This document shows positions 1-10,194 of a DNA stretch of 20,005 bases, piece after piece. Source of the DNA: a virus; IMG/VR virus record IMGVR_UViG_3300025108_000505, positions 1 through 20,005 of that record, one strand, 5' to 3'. The notes under the pieces were generated by a model, which was not told the DNA's origin, searched no databases, and saw only the letters and a program-made list of their open reading frames with translations. The translations under genes and the position numbers were made by a program. Positions within the stretch are counted from its first letter, which is position 1. Every line of letters starts with the position of its first letter.

Positions 1-764
1 GGTCCAATAAAACATAAGGTACCAACTAAGAGTATGTTATGTTCGGATGTATACCCTTCTAAATTAGTTTTTATTTCATTACCATATAACGAAATAAGAT
101 TAGAAACAATAATCACAATACCCACACTCAAAACTAATCTCCATCTGACGTGTTTTAATAGTTTACCCCACGAATTGGAGTAACTTACTAAGTAAAGGGT
201 GAATCCACAAAATAAAGGTAAATAACGATCCGTTAAACCCGCCAATACTAATGTTAGTATGAAGGGTAGGAATATTGAATATATGTTCTTATAATTAACC
301 TGGTGATCTTTAGGTATTTCAATGTTCCCGTCTTTAAATTTGTAAATGTATGTACCTATAACGACTATGGATATTATAAGTAATGGGTAAACCATATTCA
401 TTAGTTCCCCATATGTGATACCTAAAATTGCCATAGGTATTATAACTGTCTTTTCTAATGGTGACCATATATAATAATGGTGTGTTGACAGGTAGTCAAT
501 TATTCCGTAATTCTCTCTCCCTTCTTTATCTTTAGGTGCAATGGTATCAAGTATACCCGCAGAAACCGCAACCCTACCGGGTATAGGTAACACCCCACCA
601 AATAAAGATATTAGAAATAAAACTAACTTCTTAGATTTAACCGTTTTAAGTATTAAACTAAATACATCTACCAAATACCCTCTCTCTTTTAAAATACCTG
701 TTATAACCATTATAAATGAAAGGTATATAAGGAAGTGTTGGTTATTTAATATTACATCTATCAT
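1..764 (-). CDS. Polytopic inner-membrane protein resembling DUF401 permeases (partial, C-terminus beyond left edge)
   Basis: The reading frame opens at the ATG on 764-762 and stays open to the window edge (254 codons seen). The ATG overlaps the TGA of the upstream TonB-dependent receptor (ATGA), which implies translational coupling. The protein is very hydrophobic: probable membrane segments lie near residues 11-25, 47-62, 103-117, 124-140, 160-177, 181-196, 209-224 and 243-254. The key block is FGGVLPIPGRVAVSAG (residues 55-70), followed by HHYYIWSPLEKTVIIP (95-110). This layout recalls DUF401 proteins of the ion-transporter superfamily, which carry a conserved G-x-L-P-x-P-G motif, a small-residue stretch and then a W-P-L-Y-P-like segment. 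Here the usual Gly-Gly after the second Pro is Gly-Arg. The substrate is unknown. Its position after an outer-membrane receptor suggests the inner-membrane step of an import route. The membrane-protein call is firm; the family call is moderate. Confidence 0.72.
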   Translation of the reverse strand, partial: MIDVILNNQHFLIYLSFIMVITGILKERGYLVDVFSLILKTVKSKKLVLFLISLFGGVLPIPGRVAVSAGILDTIAPKDKEGRENYGIIDYLSTHHYYIWSPLEKTVIIPMAILGITYGELMNMVYPLLIISIVVIGTYIYKFKDGNIEIPKDHQVNYKNIYSIFLPFILTLVLAGLTDRYLPLFCGFTLYLVSYSNSWGKLLKHVRWRLVLSVGIVIIVSNLISLYGNEIKTNLEGYTSEHNILLVGTLCFIG

Positions 765-2518
765 AAATTCATTTTTAAATTGAACAACACAGACCTCTTA
801 GGTAAGTCTGTTGATGATCCAGTTATTCTACTTTCATTATTTAGAATATTATAAACGGATACTCCCAAATTAATAGGATTATTTTTATGTTTAAATAACG
901 TATGGTCATAACCTACAGAGATTATGTTCACTCCCTTGTTGTGGGCATACTGTCTAACATCATTCAAATCGTTTTCAGATAGTTCATCGTCTTTAATTTG
1001 AAATGACCAATCTACCCACAAATTATCCTTACTTATCTTAACGTAGGTTCTAAATGGAGAAACTTTGTTGATTGGTTCATCTGTCGATGTTTTACCATAA
1101 ACATATTCTAACCTAGACTTAAGACTAATACCCCTATTAAGTAGGTTATCTTTATTAAACCCCACATTTGATGACCATACCTTTATTTTACCTTGATTTA
1201 CTGTTTGGATGGTATCTGAATTAATGAATATGGTACTTATTGCATCATTCAATAACCTATAATTAAAGTCCACATAGAAACCCCTATTCTTATACCCAAC
1301 CCTATACGAGTCTGAGTTTTCCTGTTTAAGATCAGGATTAGGTAGTTGCTCGGCCTTACCCGTTGTAATAGATTGTTTTACCATAAGGTAGCTAGGTGCG
1401 TTTAAAGACCTTACATAACTTCCAAAGAAACCCTTCTTACCTATAATAAAGGAACTTTCGAATCCACTGAATGGTTCAATATCTGTAATCTTTACTGTCT
1501 TGTATCCACCACTTACAAACACATTAAACCCTTTAAGTTTTATATCCCACCTAAGTCCTTGTTTGAATGTTTTGTAAAGGTCATTAGGGACATAATCAAC
1601 ACCTTCAGTTTGGTAATCAATATGTTCAATTACATTAGATGTATATAGTTCAAGATTGTCACTAACCATATATTCACCATTTATAGTGAACGAATTTAAT
1701 CTACTTTTTATTCTTGTTGTTTTGTTGAGTATATTTTCTGAGAAGTTTTGATATGCAAAGTTTACTTTTAGATCCTTATAATCGTACTTATGATTAAGTA
1801 AAATATATCTCTGTAATTCCCACGTATAGATTTTAGGATCTTGGAAACCATTTATTCTTTCACCACCATTCCATTTATCAGTTCTCTCTAAATCGTTGGA
1901 TTGGGTGAAGAGAAAAGTAGTTTTATTTTTATTAGACCATTGATACTCAGTGATTAATGAATTCTGATTATAAGAACTGTGTGGTATCTCACCACCCACG
2001 GACCTTACATTATCGTTTATAATACTATTAACCGCAATACCAAACTTACCTTCTTTGTAAGAAATATAATTAGTTGTTCCATTTACACCACCATCATAAG
2101 ATAGTTTTATTGATGATGAGTCGATACCTAACTCTCTATTAATTGTACCACCTATATTACCTCCATCACTAATCCTTATTCTCTTAGTAAAATTCATAGG
2201 TACCCACCCAAAGTATTGATTAGGACCTGTTCTGAATAATGCACTATTAAACCTTATATCGTTTATGACTTGATCAACTTGGTTACCTGTGAATCCACCT
2301 AAGAAAGGACTTAGTTGACCCGGACTTGTCTGTTGTAATTGTATTGACCTTTCATATATCTTAGGTTCGATATATACTTGTCTAACTTGGTAGTTAGTTC
2401 CTGCAACCACGACAACCTCATCTAAAGTCTTTACTTTTAGTGTATCTACTTTGGTTTGGGAGTATCCTACATTACAAAATAGTAGTGCGATTACTATGTA
2501 AAAAATAAACTTTCTCAT
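761..2518 (-). CDS. TonB-dependent outer-membrane receptor, Bacteroidota type
   Basis: The protein has 585 residues if started at the ATG on 2518-2516. That start places a signal peptide at residues 1-20 (MRKF, hydrophobic core, GYSQ). An in-frame TTG at 2554 would add 12 residues before the signal and is unlikely. The mature N-terminus has a TonB box, LDEVVVVAG (32-40). A plug follows, with GGFTGNQVDQVINDIRFN (74-91) and FRTGPNQY (95-102), both known from flavobacterial receptors. The plug end is RIRISDGGNIGGTINRELG (113-131), much shorter than the usual R-I-E-V-x-R-G-P...YGSGAIGG form. The rest alternates polar and aromatic residues as a beta-barrel does, with PNPDLKQENSDSYRVGY (about 403-419), a common late-barrel motif, and VYNILN near the end. 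The last residues, LFNLKMNL, lack the usual terminal Phe. There is no N-terminal carboxypeptidase-like domain. The ligand is unknown. It would take up a scarce nutrient or metal complex, or alter the cell surface during infection. Confidence 0.85.
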   Translation of the reverse strand: MRKFIFYIVIALLFCNVGYSQTKVDTLKVKTLDEVVVVAGTNYQVRQVYIEPKIYERSIQLQQTSPGQLSPFLGGFTGNQVDQVINDIRFNSALFRTGPNQYFGWVPMNFTKRIRISDGGNIGGTINRELGIDSSSIKLSYDGGVNGTTNYISYKEGKFGIAVNSIINDNVRSVGGEIPHSSYNQNSLITEYQWSNKNKTTFLFTQSNDLERTDKWNGGERINGFQDPKIYTWELQRYILLNHKYDYKDLKVNFAYQNFSENILNKTTRIKSRLNSFTINGEYMVSDNLELYTSNVIEHIDYQTEGVDYVPNDLYKTFKQGLRWDIKLKGFNVFVSGGYKTVKITDIEPFSGFESSFIIGKKGFFGSYVRSLNAPSYLMVKQSITTGKAEQLPNPDLKQENSDSYRVGYKNRGFYVDFNYRLLNDAISTIFINSDTIQTVNQGKIKVWSSNVGFNKDNLLNRGISLKSRLEYVYGKTSTDEPINKVSPFRTYVKISKDNLWVDWSFQIKDDELSENDLNDVRQYAHNKGVNIISVGYDHTLFKHKNNPINLGVSVYNILNNESRITGSSTDLPKRSVLFNLKMNL

Positions 2519-2554
2519 AGATTTTAATTTAGATAAAATATAAATAAAAGTCAA
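2519..2554 (-). other. 36-nt spacer between methyltransferase and TonB-dependent receptor
   Basis: This AT-rich spacer lies between the TAG stop at 2557-2555 and the ATG at 2518. On the coding strand there is no purine-rich Shine-Dalgarno sequence; the last bases before the ATG are A/T-rich, as in many Bacteroidota leaders. No convincing promoter pair or hairpin was found. Confidence 0.5.
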
Positions 2555-3220
2555 CTATTTTTCTATAAGAAATATACCAATTCCGTTCCAAAAATCTTCC
2601 ATATCTTCACCCTTTGTAAAGATTTCTTTTTGGTGTGATACGAACAATTTTTCCTCATCTATGATTCTATAGAGAGCACCACTATCCCAATTCCAATCAT
2701 CCATTATTAGTATTGTCTTGTCTGAAAATTGAGGGATTATTTTTTTAAGTGTAACATACTGATCATGGAATTTGGTGTCTCCATCATAAAAAATAATATC
2801 TAATTTAGGTAGTTGGGAATAATCAAAGGTTGTATAATCTGTTTTATATATATCTAACCTATCAGGGTCTCCGAACCGCTTAACATTGTCTAAGAAGTTT
2901 TCCTGTGGTGTTACATCTAACCCTTGTTTTAGATAAGATGCCAATTTTTGACTTACACCCATCGGCATTAGGTTTGGTGATGCAAAATTGTCAATCCCAA
3001 TACCATGTAGATTATCATTATTATAAATGGCAGAACAGAAGGTTGCACCTCTGAAAACCCCAATCTCTAAGTACGTCCCACCTATTGAACATATGTTGTT
3101 GAGTAATGACCTTACTTTGTTACTTGTAATTCCGTGAATGTTTAATACGTCTTGGTTAAGTTTGGATACTTCTCTTTCACCCCACCTAATTGAGTTGTCT
3201 ATGTGTTTAATTAGGTCCAT
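2555..3220 (-). CDS. Class I SAM-dependent methyltransferase (Methyltransf_24-like)
   Basis: The protein has 221 residues; its ATG at 3220 lies inside the end of the U32-like gene (14-nt overlap). It has a Rossmann-type methyltransferase pattern: motif I is YLEIGVFRGATF (50-61, E-x-G-x3-G), GIGID (73-77) ends in the acidic residue expected to hold the SAM ribose, and DIIFYDGDTKFHDQY (141-155) and ILIMDDWNW (170-178) match the D-G-D-x3-H and D-D-W/Y pair of the Methyltransf_24 group. Members of that group often methylate sugar or natural-product hydroxyls using a bound metal, and are common in glycan and secondary-metabolite clusters and in phages. There is no DNA-methylase DPPY/NPPY or PC motif, so base methylation is unlikely. 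The acceptor is unknown. Its overlap with a radical SAM/U32-like pair suggests the three act on one product. The fold is confident; the role is inferred. Confidence 0.8.
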   Translation of the reverse strand: MDLIKHIDNSIRWGEREVSKLNQDVLNIHGITSNKVRSLLNNICSIGGTYLEIGVFRGATFCSAIYNNDNLHGIGIDNFASPNLMPMGVSQKLASYLKQGLDVTPQENFLDNVKRFGDPDRLDIYKTDYTTFDYSQLPKLDIIFYDGDTKFHDQYVTLKKIIPQFSDKTILIMDDWNWDSGALYRIIDEEKLFVSHQKEIFTKGEDMEDFWNGIGIFLIEK

Positions 3221-4247
3221 TAAGTTTTCTTTTTTTGTGTTCCGATACTATATCACAATAGTTACAATCCCAACATTGAAATTTACATTTCTTAATTTTC
3301 TTTCTCCACCCTCTTAACTCTTCGTATGGTACACCATCTAAATATGTTTTAGAGGATGAAGACAACACCTCTTTACCTTTGGAATATGACTCAATAATTT
3401 CCATAGTTTCATTAAGTCTATCAAAACTATCTCTACCGTGCATTTTAAAAACGTCAATATGGTTTAGGTATTCGTTAAACTCCTCTTTGAATGGAGGAAT
3501 TGTTGCAGTTTTAAAAAAGAACGCATCTACCTCGTCTTCCCATTTGTGTTCACATGTAACTTTAGATATTTCATGATGAAAGTATGGTAATTCGTTTGGT
3601 TTTCTAAGGTTATTATATGAATAGTGTTCATCCATAACAGGACACCTACCCAAACAACCTTCATTAGTAAGTAACGCTATTTCAATATACCTACCGTGTT
3701 TTTGTTGAAACATTAGTTGTGCTCTTCTAATGTTTTTTAATTCTTCCATATCCCTCATCAATATTCTGTCTACATTAATGTAATCAAAACCTTGTTCGGC
3801 GGAATACCAAAAATCTTGTGCGGTGTTAACCTTTCTGAGTATGGTGTTTTTAATATGCATCTCAGGAAAATGGTCCTTTAGTCCCATGGCCACCCAATGA
3901 CCATGAGGAATTGTCATAGACCTTAACCCTTTCTCATAGAGTGGTTTTAAATTATCAATAAAGAGTTTATAATTTTCATACTTTGGTGATACGTTGAAAT
4001 TATTAAAAGTTGCACTTACTTTTATACCTAACGATTCTTGTATCATCATTGCATTTTCAAAAACAGAGTTTCTATCATTATCATCTATAATTGATCCCAT
4101 CGCATCTTGAGTAAATGGTGGTATCCTACACGTGAAATATATATCATAAATCCAATCCTTGTGTTCCTTTAAAAAAGGATAGAACACATGTGTGAATGCT
4201 TGTTCACTTAACATCGGGTTTAACGGTATTGAAAAAATCTTACTCAT
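3207..4247 (-). CDS. U32-peptidase-like TIM-barrel protein with C-terminal Cys cluster
   Basis: The protein has 346 residues. The ATG at 4247 overlaps the end of the radical SAM gene by 8 nt. It resembles the U32 family (YhbU/UbiU, RlhA, TrhP type): INVDRILMRDMEELKNIR (157-174) fits the V-L-x-R-E-L-S-x-E-E-I element, and IEIALLTNEGCLGRCP (188-203) fits the segment in which U32 proteins place Fe-S cysteines. Other cysteines are C40, C232 and a terminal set C321, C325, C328, C331 (C-x3-C-x2-C-x2-C), more than U32 enzymes usually carry at this end. Known U32 proteins are not all peptidases: several hydroxylate RNA or ubiquinone precursors using a [4Fe-4S] cluster and prephenate or unknown donors. 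An SD-like GGAGGA sits 10 nt before the start. Its tight coupling to a radical SAM enzyme implies joint action. A distant radical-SAM-like barrel without an N-terminal motif is an alternative. Confidence 0.68.
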   Translation of the reverse strand: MSKIFSIPLNPMLSEQAFTHVFYPFLKEHKDWIYDIYFTCRIPPFTQDAMGSIIDDNDRNSVFENAMMIQESLGIKVSATFNNFNVSPKYENYKLFIDNLKPLYEKGLRSMTIPHGHWVAMGLKDHFPEMHIKNTILRKVNTAQDFWYSAEQGFDYINVDRILMRDMEELKNIRRAQLMFQQKHGRYIEIALLTNEGCLGRCPVMDEHYSYNNLRKPNELPYFHHEISKVTCEHKWEDEVDAFFFKTATIPPFKEEFNEYLNHIDVFKMHGRDSFDRLNETMEIIESYSKGKEVLSSSSKTYLDGVPYEELRGWRKKIKKCKFQCWDCNYCDIVSEHKKRKLNGPN

Positions 4248-5238
4248 TCTCTAAACATCCTCCACATATCCCATTACATTCTGTCTTGTAAAAAACACAA
4301 TCTAAACAGTCTTGTGGTATTTTATAATTTTTATGATTCTCCCTATAAAGATCATCGAACTCATCTCTTAGAGTTAATATATTATTTTCTCCTGAAATTT
4401 TCAATACATTATCTATCTTAACTTTGTCTTGTAAAGGATAACAATGAATAGACGAACCATCAGGAAAGATGTCTAACGGCATAAACCCACATATCTTATC
4501 ATACCCTTTTACTTTAAAGGTCGCAAAATCAAATGAGTTTTGTATAATTGATTCTTTTGTTTTACCCTCCCATAAACATGGAGGTACTTGACAATCAGAT
4601 GTAACCCTTATATTGTTGTACATCCCAAATTTAAGTATTTTGGTAACCTCCTCACCCATCTCTTTATTATTAATCAGATAGGTACCTGTCAGATCTAAAC
4701 CTAACCTTATTGCATTTAGTTTACCATCCAATGCATGATACAACCACTTTATGTAATCGTACATTTTTCTTTCCTTCCAATCCGACGATAATGTTAGTGC
4801 GATGAACAATCTTGAGTTTTCTTCAAAACCCCACGTATTGGCGTACGCTGTATATAGTGATAGGTAATTCTTTTTGAATAGATTTAATCTATTCTTTTCA
4901 TCTAATTCCGCACCATTAGGTAGAACCCACTTAATGTGTCTTATGTTGGTGACTATGTAATCTAATGTTCTTTTACCAAATAGTAAGTTACTTACTAAAT
5001 TAACTTTATAACCCCTTGAGATTATATAGTCCATTAGTCCTATAAAGTTTGAATGTTGTGTTGGTTCACCACCTAAAATAGTGACCTCTTCTCTAGATCC
5101 TTTAACATCAAAGTGGTCAAGTAACTCACCCACCTTTTCTATCGACATCTCACCAAGAGTATGTTTTAGTCTTGCATCTTCTTTTGTAAAACAGAACGAA
5201 CAACCTTTAGCACATGTACCATTTATTGCTAAATTCAT
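4240..5238 (-). CDS. Radical SAM enzyme with SPASM-like auxiliary Cys cluster
   Basis: The protein has 332 residues, starting at the ATG on 5238, 10 nt after the previous stop; there is no Shine-Dalgarno sequence. The radical SAM motif CAKGCSFC (C9-x3-C13-x2-C16) lies almost at the N-terminus, so no extra N-terminal domain exists. ILGGEPTQH (54-62) is the GGEP element that binds the SAM amino group. Later cysteines C216, C221, C250 and C266 (IHCYPL, as in many SPASM proteins) and C311, C314, C321, C325, C328 (CLDC...CNGICGGC) would hold one or two auxiliary [4Fe-4S] clusters. That architecture is typical of enzymes that modify peptides or proteins, such as sactipeptide, quinohemoprotein and PqqE-type maturases and anaerobic sulfatase activators. 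The subtype cannot be named from sequence alone. It is followed by overlapping U32-like and methyltransferase genes. A phage-encoded copy beside tail genes is unusual. Confidence 0.85.
   Translation of the reverse strand: MNLAINGTCAKGCSFCFTKEDARLKHTLGEMSIEKVGELLDHFDVKGSREEVTILGGEPTQHSNFIGLMDYIISRGYKVNLVSNLLFGKRTLDYIVTNIRHIKWVLPNGAELDEKNRLNLFKKNYLSLYTAYANTWGFEENSRLFIALTLSSDWKERKMYDYIKWLYHALDGKLNAIRLGLDLTGTYLINNKEMGEEVTKILKFGMYNNIRVTSDCQVPPCLWEGKTKESIIQNSFDFATFKVKGYDKICGFMPLDIFPDGSSIHCYPLQDKVKIDNVLKISGENNILTLRDEFDDLYRENHKNYKIPQDCLDCVFYKTECNGICGGCLENE
4258..4263 (-). promoter_or_regulatory. Shine-Dalgarno-like GGAGGA before the U32-like gene
   Basis: On the coding strand, GGAGGA lies 10 nt before the ATG at 4247. 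It is also the Gly-Gly codon pair of the C-G-G-C end of the radical SAM protein, so coding constraint may explain it. It is one of only two clear anti-SD matches before genes here. Confidence 0.4.
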
Positions 5239-5248
5239 TTAGTTATTT

Positions 5249-5989
5249 TTAGAAATCTATCTTCAGTGTCAGTGGGGTTGTCTCAATTTCCTCATCAATC
5301 TTTTGTTGTCTACTCATACCTACACCAAATTTCTCATGTCTTACCCTGTGACAATCCGCAATGGTGTTACAATTTTTAACTTTTGTTTCTAAAAGTTGTT
5401 GTTCAAGAAGTAGTGTCGCTAATTTTGTGTTATATGTTGTAACATTGGATATAATCTTATCCACTAATACTTGTTTCTCGATACCCCTACCACTTGAAAG
5501 TATGTCTATTACAGGTGTTGGGTAGTTACTATTCTCTTCATATGCAAATGCCTCTCTTTTTTGTTCTTCCCACGTATCTTTCTCTAAATCAGATACGTCA
5601 ACCATAAGATCTTTATATCTTGTAAAGAATCTATCCGCAATAACCTTTAGAAGAACCGCTTTGTTAAAATCAACACCTAATTGTTTGTCCTCATCTGTAA
5701 GTGTGTATTTAACTTTTTCTTCCTCGGTTTCTGAAGACTCCGCTAAAACAGGTACCTCATCCATTAGTGAAGAGTTTGTTCTAATACTCACATAACTTTT
5801 ATAAATGTCGGCAAAAATAAAACCCTTTCCCACATCTTCAGTTATAACAGAGGCATTAAACTTATCCAAATCTAATCTCATATCGTCGTATATGTCTTCA
5901 ATACGTCCGTAGTAATAATTCATGTAGGATCCAATAACTTTAATGTATCCAGGGATTTCACCAGTTATTTTAAAAATAATATGTCTCAT
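5249..5989 (-). CDS. Putative tail-fibre assembly chaperone-like protein
   Basis: The protein has 246 residues. Its ATG (5989-5987) shares one base with the TAA of the upstream gene (TAATG), a re-initiation junction. Residues 135-170 read L-E-x3-W140-x2-Q143-x2-E146-A-x-A-Y150...P157/P159...R168-G-I. This W-x2-Q-x2-E-A...P...RG pattern recurs in phage tail-fibre assembly and DUF4376-like proteins encoded just after fibre genes. It is followed by a long helix, about 172-205. The N-terminal part (1-75) is probably beta-rich and could be the part that contacts fibres. An acidic linker (83-93, ESSETEEEK) separates the halves. Two cysteines (C207, C213) sit near the C-terminal tail. Its position downstream of four fibre genes fits a folding or attachment helper. 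No catalytic motif was seen. The motif match is by eye, so the function is tentative. Confidence 0.55.
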   Translation of the reverse strand: MRHIIFKITGEIPGYIKVIGSYMNYYYGRIEDIYDDMRLDLDKFNASVITEDVGKGFIFADIYKSYVSIRTNSSLMDEVPVLAESSETEEEKVKYTLTDEDKQLGVDFNKAVLLKVIADRFFTRYKDLMVDVSDLEKDTWEEQKREAFAYEENSNYPTPVIDILSSGRGIEKQVLVDKIISNVTTYNTKLATLLLEQQLLETKVKNCNTIADCHRVRHEKFGVGMSRQQKIDEEIETTPLTLKIDF

Positions 5990-6735
5990 TATAAAAGTTT
6001 TTCAGTATCAGGTTTATCTGCCTTACCCAACTTAAGTTGATTCCTCAATGATTCTTCAATGGAGAAACTATTTGTTGTTGCGTTAGACATTAGTTGATTA
6101 ATGTTCTTATCTATAAATACTGTGTAAGAGGAAGCAAGTGATAAAACTTGTTTCTGTTGTTCGGCCGACATCATTAAAATAGAATCTAAGTTACCTGTAC
6201 CTACTCTACCATACGATATCATATCTAACATGGCTTGTTTTGCCATTCTAACCGTCCAATACTCGTGTTCAAATTTATCTTCTAATTCTTTATTACCTAT
6301 AACATCTATTAAATTAGATCCGTCAGGTAGTTTGGCGTCATCAGTGTCTAAGAAATCTTTTATTAGGTCAATAAACCCTTGTCTCTCAATATAAGCGTCC
6401 TTCAAGTTTCTTTTAAACTTTCTAAGGTCAATCTTCATATCCGCAATATTAAGGTCAACTAATTGTTTTCTTTTGGGGTCGGTAAGAAATTCTTTACTCT
6501 CCTCTTGTATTTGTATTTCTAAGTCTTGTTTTTGTACAGTATACTCTAAATGTTCGACCGCATCTTCACGACCTCTGAGTTCGAGTAACCACTGTTTCAA
6601 TTTTGCGTATGGAGTAATTTGTGCTCCCCCAACAAAAGTCTCTGCCTTATATCTCGGTAGTGCGAATGATACCTGTTCCGCTATTTCTATGAGTTTAGAG
6701 TTAACACCATCTCTTTCGTATTTAAAGTCTTGCAT
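5989..6735 (-). CDS. Helical protein of unknown function downstream of tail fibres
   Basis: I do not recognise this 248-residue protein. It starts at the ATG on 6735, after the window's longest gap. Residues about 45-128 are strongly helical and rich in charged heptads (ELRGREDAVEHLEY, MKIDLRKFKRNLKDAY), so a coiled coil is likely. Residues 138-205 hold a second helical part with YGRVGTGNLDSILMMSAEQQ (a Gly-rich turn, then a helix). The C-terminus is polar and probably flexible. There are no cysteines, no signal peptide, no membrane segment and no enzyme motif. It is translationally linked (TAATG) to the putative fibre-assembly protein. It may be a virion structural protein, a baseplate or fibre connector, or a scaffold-type helper. 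The coding call is firm because length, codon use and gene spacing match its neighbours. Confidence 0.75.
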   Translation of the reverse strand: MQDFKYERDGVNSKLIEIAEQVSFALPRYKAETFVGGAQITPYAKLKQWLLELRGREDAVEHLEYTVQKQDLEIQIQEESKEFLTDPKRKQLVDLNIADMKIDLRKFKRNLKDAYIERQGFIDLIKDFLDTDDAKLPDGSNLIDVIGNKELEDKFEHEYWTVRMAKQAMLDMISYGRVGTGNLDSILMMSAEQQKQVLSLASSYTVFIDKNINQLMSNATTNSFSIEESLRNQLKLGKADKPDTEKLL

Positions 6736-6795: not shown

Positions 6796-7911
6796 TTATT
6801 CTCTCCAAGCACAGTGACCTGAAGACGTACCTGCGTTCACTGCTGGTGGAAGACCTGCCGGATTTAAAACACCTGTGTCTGTTTGATAATACATCTTCCA
6901 ACTATCGTTATTTTGAAGACTACTACCGTAACAACCTAACATGTATTGCCAATCCTGTCCCATTGCGAAATTCTCTTCACCACAATTAGGTCTTAACTTA
7001 GAAACATTACCAATATTAGTATCTGTAGATGTATCCCATCTTCTCAAATTGTAACCACCTTGGTAAGATCCCTCATTACCGGCATAACCCTTACCAACTT
7101 TAGACGCAATACCTTTTTGTTGTCCGTGTGCTGACCATGAACTTGACGCACTTGATATGGTCTCCGTAGAGAATTCCATTTTTATACTACTTGTACTCCA
7201 TCCATAACCATGAGTTTCATTACAGAACGAACTCGCTCCACCACTACTACTTATCGAGGTTACACCATAGTTTGTTATTGTCGTTTCATTACTTAAATTA
7301 AATTTATCCACCTCAGTTCTGTTACCCGCGAAAATCCAAGCAAACTCATGTTCTTTCCACATGGTTCCACAATCGGACCTACTATATTGTAAGTCGTGGT
7401 TAGATTGGTGTGCGTAGTTAGTGTCCGTCATCATATTAACCGCTGAAGTTGTGTTACTATGTAGAGTTGTCGGTCCTTTGTGTCCATTATCAGTGTTCAC
7501 GGACCACATATAAAATATAGATTTACTACATGCTCCTGAGGTATAGTTTGCAGGGTAGTCTAATAACTCACCTATGTGTGTTGTCTGATCAGTTGCATTA
7601 GTCGCTTTGTGTACATTCTTCCAAGGTGAACTTGATTTGTAACCACCAGCCATATACGAATAGTTTATTATTTGTCTGTACTTAAAGTTAGTCCCTTCAT
7701 TCTGTTGTGCCGATATTCGTTCCCAACCATTTTCTATATTTGAAACACCAGTATAAACCATAAGATAACTTGTGTGTTCGGATGATTCTTCCAAGAATAA
7801 AGAACCCGATAATGGGTTCGATGGTCTCTGTGACTTAACACCTTTCGGTGGTCTTGCAGTGACTCTGTCCACTTTAAGTGAACCACTAACGGACATATTT
7901 TCGTATATCAT
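6796..7911 (-). CDS. Tail-fibre/adhesin paralog 3, kelch-like propeller
   Basis: This is the last of three tandem paralogs (371 residues, ATG at 7911). It opens with MIYENMSVSGSL, shared with the other fibres, then RPSNPLSGSLFLEES (29-43) and GWERI (62-66), the R-P-x-x-P-x-x-G...G-W pattern found at the start of many phage fibre proteins. Six kelch-like units follow from residue 84: each starts with an aromatic/hydrophobic run plus Gly (YSYMAGGY; FYMWSV; FAWIFAG; HGYGW; KGYAGNEG; DWQYMLG) and reaches an F/W-x(2-4)-T-[DE] strand (FNLSNET, RRWDTSTDT, YYQTDTG). Cysteines C128, C310 and C367 are kept in all three copies; C181, C230 and C327 are not. The C-terminus SSGHCAWRE closes the last unit. 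It is probably a receptor-binding virion protein. It lacks a signal peptide and enzyme motifs. Confidence 0.72.
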   Translation of the reverse strand: MIYENMSVSGSLKVDRVTARPPKGVKSQRPSNPLSGSLFLEESSEHTSYLMVYTGVSNIENGWERISAQQNEGTNFKYRQIINYSYMAGGYKSSSPWKNVHKATNATDQTTHIGELLDYPANYTSGACSKSIFYMWSVNTDNGHKGPTTLHSNTTSAVNMMTDTNYAHQSNHDLQYSRSDCGTMWKEHEFAWIFAGNRTEVDKFNLSNETTITNYGVTSISSSGGASSFCNETHGYGWSTSSIKMEFSTETISSASSSWSAHGQQKGIASKVGKGYAGNEGSYQGGYNLRRWDTSTDTNIGNVSKLRPNCGEENFAMGQDWQYMLGCYGSSLQNNDSWKMYYQTDTGVLNPAGLPPAVNAGTSSGHCAWRE

Positions 7912-7923
7912 ATTCTTTCTATT

Positions 7924-9042
7924 TTATTCTCTCCAACCACAATGTCCAGAAGAAGTCCCTGGGTTTACCGCGGGATTTAAACCTGTAACACTTGTAGTTC
8001 CTGTGTCTGTTGAATACGTGAATTTCCACGCATTATTATTTTGTAAACCATTATAATTACCTAACATATACTGCCAATCCTGACCCATAGTAAAGTTTTC
8101 TTCACCACAATTTCCGTCAGGTTTAGGGACGTTACCAATATTCGTGTCTGTTTGATTACTCCATCTTCTTAAATTGTAACCTCCATTATATGAACCTTCA
8201 TTACCGGCATAACCCTTTCCAACCTTAGAACTAATTCCTTTTTGTTGTGAGTGATTACCCCAACGATCCGAGGTTGTAAATGTTTCGGTTGCAAAATTTA
8301 ATTTTACACCAGCGCCCGATGTCCAACCATAACCATGGAGTTCATCTGAAAATGCGGAAGCACCATCACTACCGTTTATTGTTGTTAATGTATATGCGGT
8401 ATGTAAAGATTCTGTAGTTAAATTAAATAATTCCACGGTTGTTGAACCACCACTAAAAAGGTATGCCATTTCAGTTTCTTTAAACATAGTACCTAAATCA
8501 CTTCTTGATATGGTAGTATCCATTGCCGCGGTATGTGCATAGTTGGTATCGGTCATCATATTTACTGCTGACGTGGTTGTACCATGTACATTACCCGCAC
8601 TTTTCCAAGCACCATCATCATTAACAGACCAAACATAGAAAATTGTTCTACTACATGCCCCTGAGGTATACGATGCGGGATAATCCAATAACTCACCTAA
8701 GTGAGATGTTTGGTCGGTTGCGTTTACTGTTTTGTGTACATTCTTCCAAGGTGAACTTGATTTGTAACCACCCGCTAAATATGAATAGTTTATTATCTGA
8801 TTGTACTTGAAACTAGTTTTACCAAAATTACTTTGATTTGCAATTCTTTCCCATCCACCGTCGTTTCCATTACCCGTATAAACCATTAAGAAACTATTAT
8901 CAAAACTACCTGAGGTTGTCATTTCTAAATATAGAGACCCATTTTCTGGTGAAGATGGTCTACTCGCCTTCAAACCTGAAGGAGGTCTTGTAGGTCCTTG
9001 TCCTCTTAATGATCCACTAATTTCTAAATTTTCAAATATCAT
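7924..9042 (-). CDS. Tail-fibre/adhesin paralog 2, kelch-like propeller
   Basis: The middle paralog has 372 residues, with its ATG at 9042, 12 nt after the previous stop and without a Shine-Dalgarno sequence. The N-terminus MIFENLEISGSL and the SRPSSPENGSLYLE (27-40) / GGWERI (62-67) pair match its neighbours. Blade-like units start at YSYLAGGY (86-93), IFYVWSV, MAYLFSGG, HGYGW, KGYAGNEG and DWQYMLG. The strings KVGKGYAGNEGSY and GGYNLRRW (about 273-294), and NCGEENF (311-317), are nearly identical in all three copies, whereas residues about 140-270 vary in sequence and length. It has only the three shared cysteines (C130, C312, C368). A cysteine found at the RSD[DC]CG site in the other two copies is Leu here (SDLGT). 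A receptor-binding role is inferred from context. Confidence 0.72.
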   Translation of the reverse strand: MIFENLEISGSLRGQGPTRPPSGLKASRPSSPENGSLYLEMTTSGSFDNSFLMVYTGNGNDGGWERIANQSNFGKTSFKYNQIINYSYLAGGYKSSSPWKNVHKTVNATDQTSHLGELLDYPASYTSGACSRTIFYVWSVNDDGAWKSAGNVHGTTTSAVNMMTDTNYAHTAAMDTTISRSDLGTMFKETEMAYLFSGGSTTVELFNLTTESLHTAYTLTTINGSDGASAFSDELHGYGWTSGAGVKLNFATETFTTSDRWGNHSQQKGISSKVGKGYAGNEGSYNGGYNLRRWSNQTDTNIGNVPKPDGNCGEENFTMGQDWQYMLGNYNGLQNNNAWKFTYSTDTGTTSVTGLNPAVNPGTSSGHCGWRE

Positions 9043-9054
9043 ATCTATAAATAG

Positions 9055-10194
9055 TTAATTTCTCCAACCACAATGTCCTGATGATGCACCTGCGTTAACA
9101 CCTGGTGCTAACCCTGCAGGATTTACCGTACCTGTATCTGTTGTATATGAGAATTTCCAACTCGCATTTGATTGACCCGTACCATCGTATGTTGCTAACA
9201 TGTATTGATGGTCTTGTCCCATTGTAAAATTCTCTTCCCCACAATTTGCGTGTGGTTTAGGAACATTACCAATATTAGTTTCGGTAAAAACATCCCACCT
9301 TCTTAAATTGTAACCTCCATTATATGTACCTTCATTTCCACAATAACCTTTACCAACTTTAGAACTAATTCCTTTTTGTTGTCCACTAGATGCCCATGAA
9401 GATGCTCTTGTCTCGAACACATCAGTTGCAAAGTGACATTTGTTCCCACTTTGGGAACCATACCCATAACCATAGTTTTCATCAGAAAATCCTGAAGAAC
9501 CTAATGTACTTGTAATGGATAGTGTTGTTGTAACATAAGGTGATCCACCTGGATAATAAGTGGTGTACATTGTCTCGTTAGTTAAATTAAATTTTTCTAC
9601 AGTCGCCACCGATCCACCAAAAACGTATGCAAATTCAGTTTCCTTAAATAAAGTCCCACAATCATCCCTGGCATTTAATAAATCCCATTTAGATTGGTGT
9701 GCGTATGTGGTCTCGTTTACCATATCAACACCAGATGTGTGGGTTGAATGTATGGTGGTGGCTCCTTTATTACCACCGTCAGTATTTGTGGACCAAAGAA
9801 ATAATTTAGTTTTACTACACGCCCCTGAGGTATAGTTTGCTGGGTAATCTAATAACTCACCTAAGTGAGATGTTTGGTCGGTTGCGTTAATTGTTTTATG
9901 TACATTCTTCCATGGTGAACCTGACTTATATCCACCTGCCAAATATGAATAGTTTATTATTTGTCTGTATTTGAATCCTGTTCTGTCAGTATCTTGTGAA
10001 CCCACTGGTTCCCAACCATCATCATAATTAGATGACCCAGTATATGTAACAACGAAACTACCACTTGTAGATTCTTCTAAGTACATAGAACCAACCTCAG
10101 GTGAAGTGGGTCTTTCCCCTCTACTACCTCTCGGTATGATAAATTGTCCACTCACGTCAAGTGAACCACTAACTATTACGTTTTCTCTAATCAT
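9055..10194 (-). CDS. Tail-fibre/adhesin paralog 1, kelch-like propeller
   Basis: The first and longest paralog has 379 residues. It directly follows the giant fibre and has a good Shine-Dalgarno sequence (AAGGAAG). It starts with MIRENVIVSGSL, then RPTSPEVGSMYLEES (28-42) and DDGWEPV (58-64). Units begin at YSYLAGGY (82-89), LFLWST, FAYVFGG (188-194), YGYGYG (241-246), KGYCGNEG (282-289) and HQYMLA (329-334). The third unit holds an insertion, YYPGGSPYVTTT (213-224), absent from the other copies, which makes it the longest. Cysteines are C126, C179, C253, C285, C318 and C375. The C-terminus is SSGHCGWRN. It is most likely one of a set of alternative or cooperating adhesins on the same virion. 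The six-blade propeller is inferred from repeat spacing (about 40-57 residues), not from a structure. Confidence 0.72.
   Translation of the reverse strand: MIRENVIVSGSLDVSGQFIIPRGSRGERPTSPEVGSMYLEESTSGSFVVTYTGSSNYDDGWEPVGSQDTDRTGFKYRQIINYSYLAGGYKSGSPWKNVHKTINATDQTSHLGELLDYPANYTSGACSKTKLFLWSTNTDGGNKGATTIHSTHTSGVDMVNETTYAHQSKWDLLNARDDCGTLFKETEFAYVFGGSVATVEKFNLTNETMYTTYYPGGSPYVTTTLSITSTLGSSGFSDENYGYGYGSQSGNKCHFATDVFETRASSWASSGQQKGISSKVGKGYCGNEGTYNGGYNLRRWDVFTETNIGNVPKPHANCGEENFTMGQDHQYMLATYDGTGQSNASWKFSYTTDTGTVNPAGLAPGVNAGASSGHCGWRN

Follow-up and report, generated by a model that had tools for sequence, protein, structure and literature searches.

We analyzed a 20,005-base virus record (IMG/VR IMGVR_UViG_3300025108_000505, hereafter the window), whose 11 main genes all lie on the minus strand (Table 1). 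Three of them, encoding a radical SAM (S-adenosylmethionine) enzyme, a U32-like protein and a methyltransferase, follow three tail-fibre-like paralogues (phrog_1417) and two fibre-operon proteins (phrog_1409 and phrog_1604). The three enzymes form one conserved set and we propose, with a probability of about 0.58, that they are a post-translational tailoring set for the upstream phrog_1417 fibres or for the two fibre-operon proteins encoded in between. A preliminary description of this DNA had joined the enzymes to the TonB-dependent-receptor-like barrel and the permease encoded after them, as a module that modifies and imports a small molecule or peptide, and had mentioned a virion protein as a possible target in an aside. 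The comparisons below favour the aside: the enzymes co-segregate with fibre type and the barrel and permease are exchanged without regard to enzyme type, so that the modify-and-import module is unsupported.

Exchange of the enzymes together with the fibres

A check of conserved co-occurrence and gene order, proposed in the preliminary description, came out positive. The order fibres, phrog_1409, phrog_1604, radical SAM enzyme (where present), U32-like protein and methyltransferase recurs in about 80 viral loci, and the arrangement is thus not due to chance. The radical SAM and methyltransferase genes were found together in 53 distinct viral genotypes, with the U32-like protein and the methyltransferase encoded by separate genes. 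The 14 fibre-linked genotypes that lack the radical SAM gene all have the U32-like protein and the methyltransferase fused in one protein. This fusion corresponds to phrog_1458 and to T4-GC 354 of cyanophages, and it is also present in other viral contigs.

In six relatives (L265, L282, L240, L257, L219 and L284), a PF04820 tryptophan halogenase (E 4e-105) substitutes for the three enzymes, and the permease is followed by an Asp/Asn hydroxylase. Compared with the radical SAM-type phages, their permeases are 78-91% identical, the barrels in the slot before the permease 44-97% and the phrog_1401 proteins (described below) 54-94%; their fibres are 26-36% identical or give no match, and the phrog_1409 and phrog_1604 proteins are 29-34% and 24-29% identical, respectively. 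The halogenase-type fibre still belongs to phrog_1417 (E 9e-18). Two kinds of protein occupy the slot before the permease, the 597-residue receptor-like protein and a PF13557 barrel of about 285 residues, and all four pairings of enzyme and barrel were found: radical SAM with the receptor-like barrel (the window) or with the short barrel (L011), and halogenase with the receptor-like barrel (L265) or with the short barrel (L240, L257 and L219). Only two combinations of enzyme and fibre were seen, each enzyme type with one fibre type. The enzymes therefore recombine away from the transporter genes, which we did not see them do from the fibres, and two separately exchanged units adjoin in the window: the fibres with their two helpers and the enzymes, and the barrel with the permease.

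We consider it very improbable that the enzymes produce or modify a peptide or small molecule for import by the receptor and permease. The five genes do sit in one operon with short overlaps, and the barrel and permease remain paired even where their order is flipped (L170 and L267), but the receptor slot and the enzymes recombine independently and in most relatives an unrelated short barrel occupies this slot in place of the supposed dedicated receptor. Cyanophages, moreover, retain the enzymes with the fibres but have no such barrel and mostly no permease (nine phage records against 123 with the U32-like gene). The preliminary description saw no precursor peptide gene and neither did we, none being evident among window frames of at least 60 residues or among the frames of at least 30 residues downstream in L082; the precursor-peptide idea was set aside for want of an obvious candidate there. 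It is also unlikely that the enzymes act on a host surface molecule or a small molecule so as to exclude superinfection or manipulate the host. An outer-membrane barrel adjoins the enzymes, and on the opposite strand past the permease (L082:11277-17325) there are frames resembling, by eye, several glycosyltransferases and an NAD-dependent epimerase, but enzyme type tracks fibre type and not barrel type.

The same pairing is found in cyanophages of the Kyanoviridae (Syn33, P-SSM4 and S-RIM2), where homologues of the fibre, the two helpers, the U32-like protein and the methyltransferase follow each other in the same order as T4-GC 351-352-353-354. This locus differs from that of the window by the fusion of the U32-like protein and methyltransferase and by the absence of the radical SAM enzyme and of the outer-membrane barrel, the short form of which gave no match among named phages. 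The permease occurs in only nine phage records and in S-CAM4 it lies 58 kb from the U32-methyltransferase gene. GC351 (the fibre), 352, 353 and 354 are consecutive in eight of the nine cyanomyovirus records examined; in S-ShM2, the exception, further genes including 2-oxoglutarate (2OG)-Fe(II) oxygenases are inserted between 353 and 354. Among 50,697 phage records searched with tblastn, GC353 was found in 123 and the U32-like gene in 123, with a matching breakdown by organism name, co-occurrence being judged here from counts and listed rows and not accession by accession. Phages whose fibres have only the N-terminal anchor in common with these (e.g., S-MbCM6, S-CAM22 and S-H38) were not seen in the U32 lists.

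These data bear on the possibility that enzyme and fibre genes are mere neighbours in a hypervariable block, linked without shared function. The genes do lie side by side and are exchanged as a single piece, but the pairing recurs in two distant phage groups, the Kyanoviridae and the clade of the window, and S-ShM2 retains both fibre and enzyme genes despite the insertions between them. The independent persistence of the pairing in cyanophages argues against mere linkage, if not conclusively, and we hold this explanation to be about as unlikely as a role at the host surface.

Identity of the three enzymes

The enzyme identities given in the preliminary description were borne out by Pfam scores for the radical SAM enzyme and the methyltransferase and by a fold match for the U32-like protein. 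The first matches Radical_SAM (PF04055) with 41 bits against a cut-off of 29.5 and belongs to this superfamily, with CxxxCxxC at residues 9-16. Two other cysteine motifs, CX10GX4C at 250-266 and CX2CX6CX3CX2C at 311-328, complete a set of 12 cysteines that are all invariant across 14 relatives, and seven of these are in a nearly canonical SPASM arrangement. The published seven-cysteine SPASM motif is CX9-15GX4C-CX2CX5CX3C-C (PMC5715301). The window protein thus resembles the SPASM maturases PqqE and anSME in its CxxxCxxC and in seven C-terminal cysteines of nearly the published spacing (PMC5715301), but differs from them by X6 where the motif has X5, by the lack of a PF13186 match and by the lack of a visible peptide precursor.

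We call the second protein U32-like only, because none of the 27 members of its family matched the Pfam Peptidase_U32 profile at E<=1. Its AlphaFold2 (AF2) model (pLDDT 83) is an eight-stranded TIM barrel, and the top match in the Protein Data Bank (PDB), by Foldseek and VIA-align, was the U32 peptidase 5d88 (Z 15.1, other barrels having Z <=13.6). Five cysteines (C198, C202, C232, C321 and C325) are invariant in 27 of 27 relatives and two more (C328 and C331) are conserved in 26. The protein has the TIM-barrel fold and the conserved cysteine cluster of the U32 family, of which an Fe-S cluster and prephenate-dependent hydroxylation are further marks. The characterised U32 oxidases hydroxylate ubiquinone or RNA in oxygen-independent reactions (PMC11574389). 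The likeness to UbiU/UbiV, RlhA and TrhP lies in the cysteine-bearing barrel and the best fold match, whereas the window-type proteins differ in having no Pfam U32 match and in their linkage to fibres and a methyltransferase.

The third enzyme matches Methyltransf_24 (PF13578) with 29.9 bits against a cut-off of 26.3 and is a member of that family. Sequence searches of solved structures with the alignments of the three enzymes gave nothing useful.

The pairing of a hydroxylase with a methyltransferase resembles tRNA U34 modification. This likeness counts for a further alternative, in which the U32-like protein and the methyltransferase modify host or phage tRNA or rRNA in the manner of RlhA and TrhP, a hydroxylated base being methylated. 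RNA is, with ubiquinone, a substrate of the known U32 oxidases (PMC11574389), but here the U32-like gene is tied to a fibre operon and not to tRNA or translation genes, and the enzymes that take its place elsewhere, a tryptophan halogenase and an Asp/Asn hydroxylase, suggest amino-acid side chains as targets. We regard an RNA target as quite improbable.

Proposed tailoring of the fibres and its possible significance

SPASM enzymes tend to act on polypeptides, and halogenase and Asp/Asn-hydroxylase families on amino-acid side chains; tailoring of the fibres fits both of these tendencies. We infer the fibre as substrate as well as the chemistry and benefit outlined here. The fibres and helpers would be translated from the same operon as the enzymes. 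The U32-like enzyme, a predicted Fe-S protein, would then oxidise, and probably hydroxylate, residues in the distal fibre domain, the methyltransferase would methylate the oxidised product and, in the lineage of the window, the SPASM-like radical SAM enzyme would contribute one more, radical-based, modification. A fibre tip altered in this way may change stability or receptor specificity. In an alignment of 20 U32-type and five halogenase-type fibres (numbering from L011:3045-4181, equal in length to the window fibre C), E321, N343 and G369 were present in 20 of 20 U32-type and in none of the five halogenase-type sequences. These residues are candidates for target or specificity positions, nothing more. 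The fibre C-terminus SSGHCGWR was also considered as a tag specific to the radical SAM enzyme and was rejected, as related SSGxC ends are found in cyanophages without that enzyme and some U32 phages lack them.

Several observations weigh against fibre tailoring. Since the enzyme genes adjoin the fibre genes, they could co-segregate simply by hitch-hiking in one contiguous block. Few genotypes show the exchange, the four halogenase genotypes falling into about three clusters, and near-identical isolates dominate the 123 cyanophage records. The fibre C-terminal cysteine is not universal, being found in 17 of the 20 U32-type sequences. Finally, U32-like genes occur without these fibres in L162, L093, L095 and L096, as do five more distant halogenase loci, so these enzyme families are not fibre-specific everywhere.

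Some contexts of the U32-like gene lie outside phages. In the cellular Desulfocapsa locus L094, it is flanked by genes for an RTX protein and a type I (T1SS) exporter, possibly a second link of the family to secreted surface proteins. A Syntrophaceae operon (L095:7589-13804 and L096) contains the U32-like gene, in two copies in L096, with a GNAT acetyltransferase, a TauE-type exporter, sulfate-activation-like genes and a possible second barrel protein. A general spread of the family in Syntrophaceae was not upheld, as only two of 51 genomes carry it.

More broadly, and more tentatively, with odds a little short of even, T4-like aquatic phages may carry interchangeable enzyme sets, each dedicated to modifying one class of tail-fibre adhesin. 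The sets proposed are the SPASM-like radical SAM, U32 and methyltransferase enzymes; the U32-methyltransferase fusion; and a tryptophan halogenase with an Asp/Asn or 2OG hydroxylase. In cyanophages such as syn9, S-RIM44, S-WAM1 and P-TIM40, a tryptophan halogenase (prnA) and 2OG-Fe(II) oxygenases likewise place oxidative side-chain enzymes after fibre genes, although the enzyme families and the fibres differ from those of the window. Published comments assign them no role: papers from 2010 put forward protection against antibiotics, as a speculation, for the halogenase (PMC2984593) and a part in DNA repair or 2OG metabolism for the oxygenases (PMC3037559). Work on Baltic Sea viruses has considered a prolyl 4-hydroxylase alongside tail fibres that contain collagen, and called its use cryptic (PMC9301287). 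We found no report in the open-access literature tying radical SAM, U32, methyltransferase or halogenase enzymes to phage fibre type.

The properties of phage adhesins are as a rule deduced only from their sequence or a structure prediction. Enzymes that tailor the product of a neighbouring gene are of a known kind, and there is a substantial chance that fibre tailoring would be a new principle for these adhesins. If it holds, host-range prediction misses a layer, the chemistry of receptor binding is not confined to the 20 amino acids, and a concrete function falls to abundant "auxiliary metabolic" genes (cyanophage tryptophan halogenase, 2OG oxygenases and T4-GC 354). GC354 phages have been isolated on culturable Synechococcus, and the proposal opens the unexplained cyanophage halogenase to direct testing.

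Gene layout and the barrel-permease unit

A recheck of the reading frames of the window confirmed the gene coordinates, overlaps and gaps of the preliminary description, and with them a tight operon. The radical SAM and U32-like genes overlap by 8 nucleotides and the U32-like and methyltransferase genes by 14. The receptor-like frame has an ATG at about 2518, 36 nucleotides past the methyltransferase, and overlaps the permease by 4 nucleotides. A search of Rfam gave no match, and scans for the T4 late promoter (TATAAATA) and for sigma-70 promoters gave no matches above chance.

Table 1. Main genes of the window
Feature	Position	Strand	Remarks
DUF401 inner-membrane permease	3..764	-	PF04165 above cut-off; phrog_14035; cut by record end; separate unit
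TonB-dependent-receptor-like outer-membrane barrel	761..2554	-	Separate unit, exchangeable slot
SAM-dependent methyltransferase, 221 aa	2555..3220	-	PF13578 above cut-off; C-terminal part of phrog_1458
U32-like TIM-barrel protein, putatively Fe-S, 346 aa	3207..4247	-	phrog_1458 N-terminal part, E 4e-92; AF2 model; 5d88 match
Radical SAM enzyme, 332 aa, SPASM-like C-terminal cysteines	4240..5238	-	PF04055, 41 bits
Fibre-operon protein phrog_1604 (T4-GC 352 homologue), candidate helper or virion protein	5249..5989	-	Same order in cyanophages
Fibre-operon protein phrog_1409 (T4-GC 353 homologue)	5989..6735	-	PHROG match
Tail-fibre-like paralogue A (phrog_1417), candidate substrate, C-terminus SSGHCAWRE	6796..7911	-	
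Tail-fibre-like paralogue B, C-terminus SSGHCGWRE	7924..9042	-	
Tail-fibre-like paralogue C, C-terminus SSGHCGWRN	9055..10194	-	
Giant fibre/virion protein, 3265 aa	10206..20003	-	Upstream in same transcription unit

Several lines of evidence, each weak but in agreement, make the 597-residue receptor-like protein a probable TonB-dependent receptor. Its Plug domain scores 16.3 bits, below the Pfam cut-off of 23.9, and is matched weakly by three of seven family members. The model is poor (pLDDT 43), and its best 50 Foldseek rows are all TonB-dependent transporters. The top PDB profile match was PhuR (E 0.01) and an annotated Bacteroidota receptor is 27% identical. A search for a bacterial origin of the protein yielded nothing past one weak plasmid match, the scan of genomes having covered the U32 family. 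The permease matches DUF401 (PF04165) with 34.5 bits against a cut-off of 24 and is assigned to this family; in a 100%-identical relative the full protein has 338 residues and scores 48.5 bits.

In the freshwater clade, the two barrel types have almost identical signal peptides and share, near the start, an LxEVVV stretch that resembles a TonB box (short barrels L005:10734-11591, L072:10759-11643 and others; receptor-like barrels L056:10349-12124 and L265:8007-9809), as though one leader had been kept and the barrels behind it exchanged. For a short barrel with no plug in evidence, a TonB box would be unusual. We infer that the barrel and permease form a unit of their own that works in the host envelope, with uptake or superinfection exclusion as possible roles.

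A search for the Gp23 capsid protein gave a clear match in only one of seven large relatives. In another phage lineage, a frame resembling a 2OG-Fe(II) oxygenase by eye (L267:5613-6254) follows the fused U32-methyltransferase. The phrog_1401 protein, a conserved protein of 147 residues, comes after the permease in nearly all relatives (L002:11685-12128). A tRNA-Arg (CCG) lies just before the barrel slot in L056 (10226-10316) and also in L052, L054, L067, L076 and L259; in these freshwater relatives it is possibly a recombination landmark.

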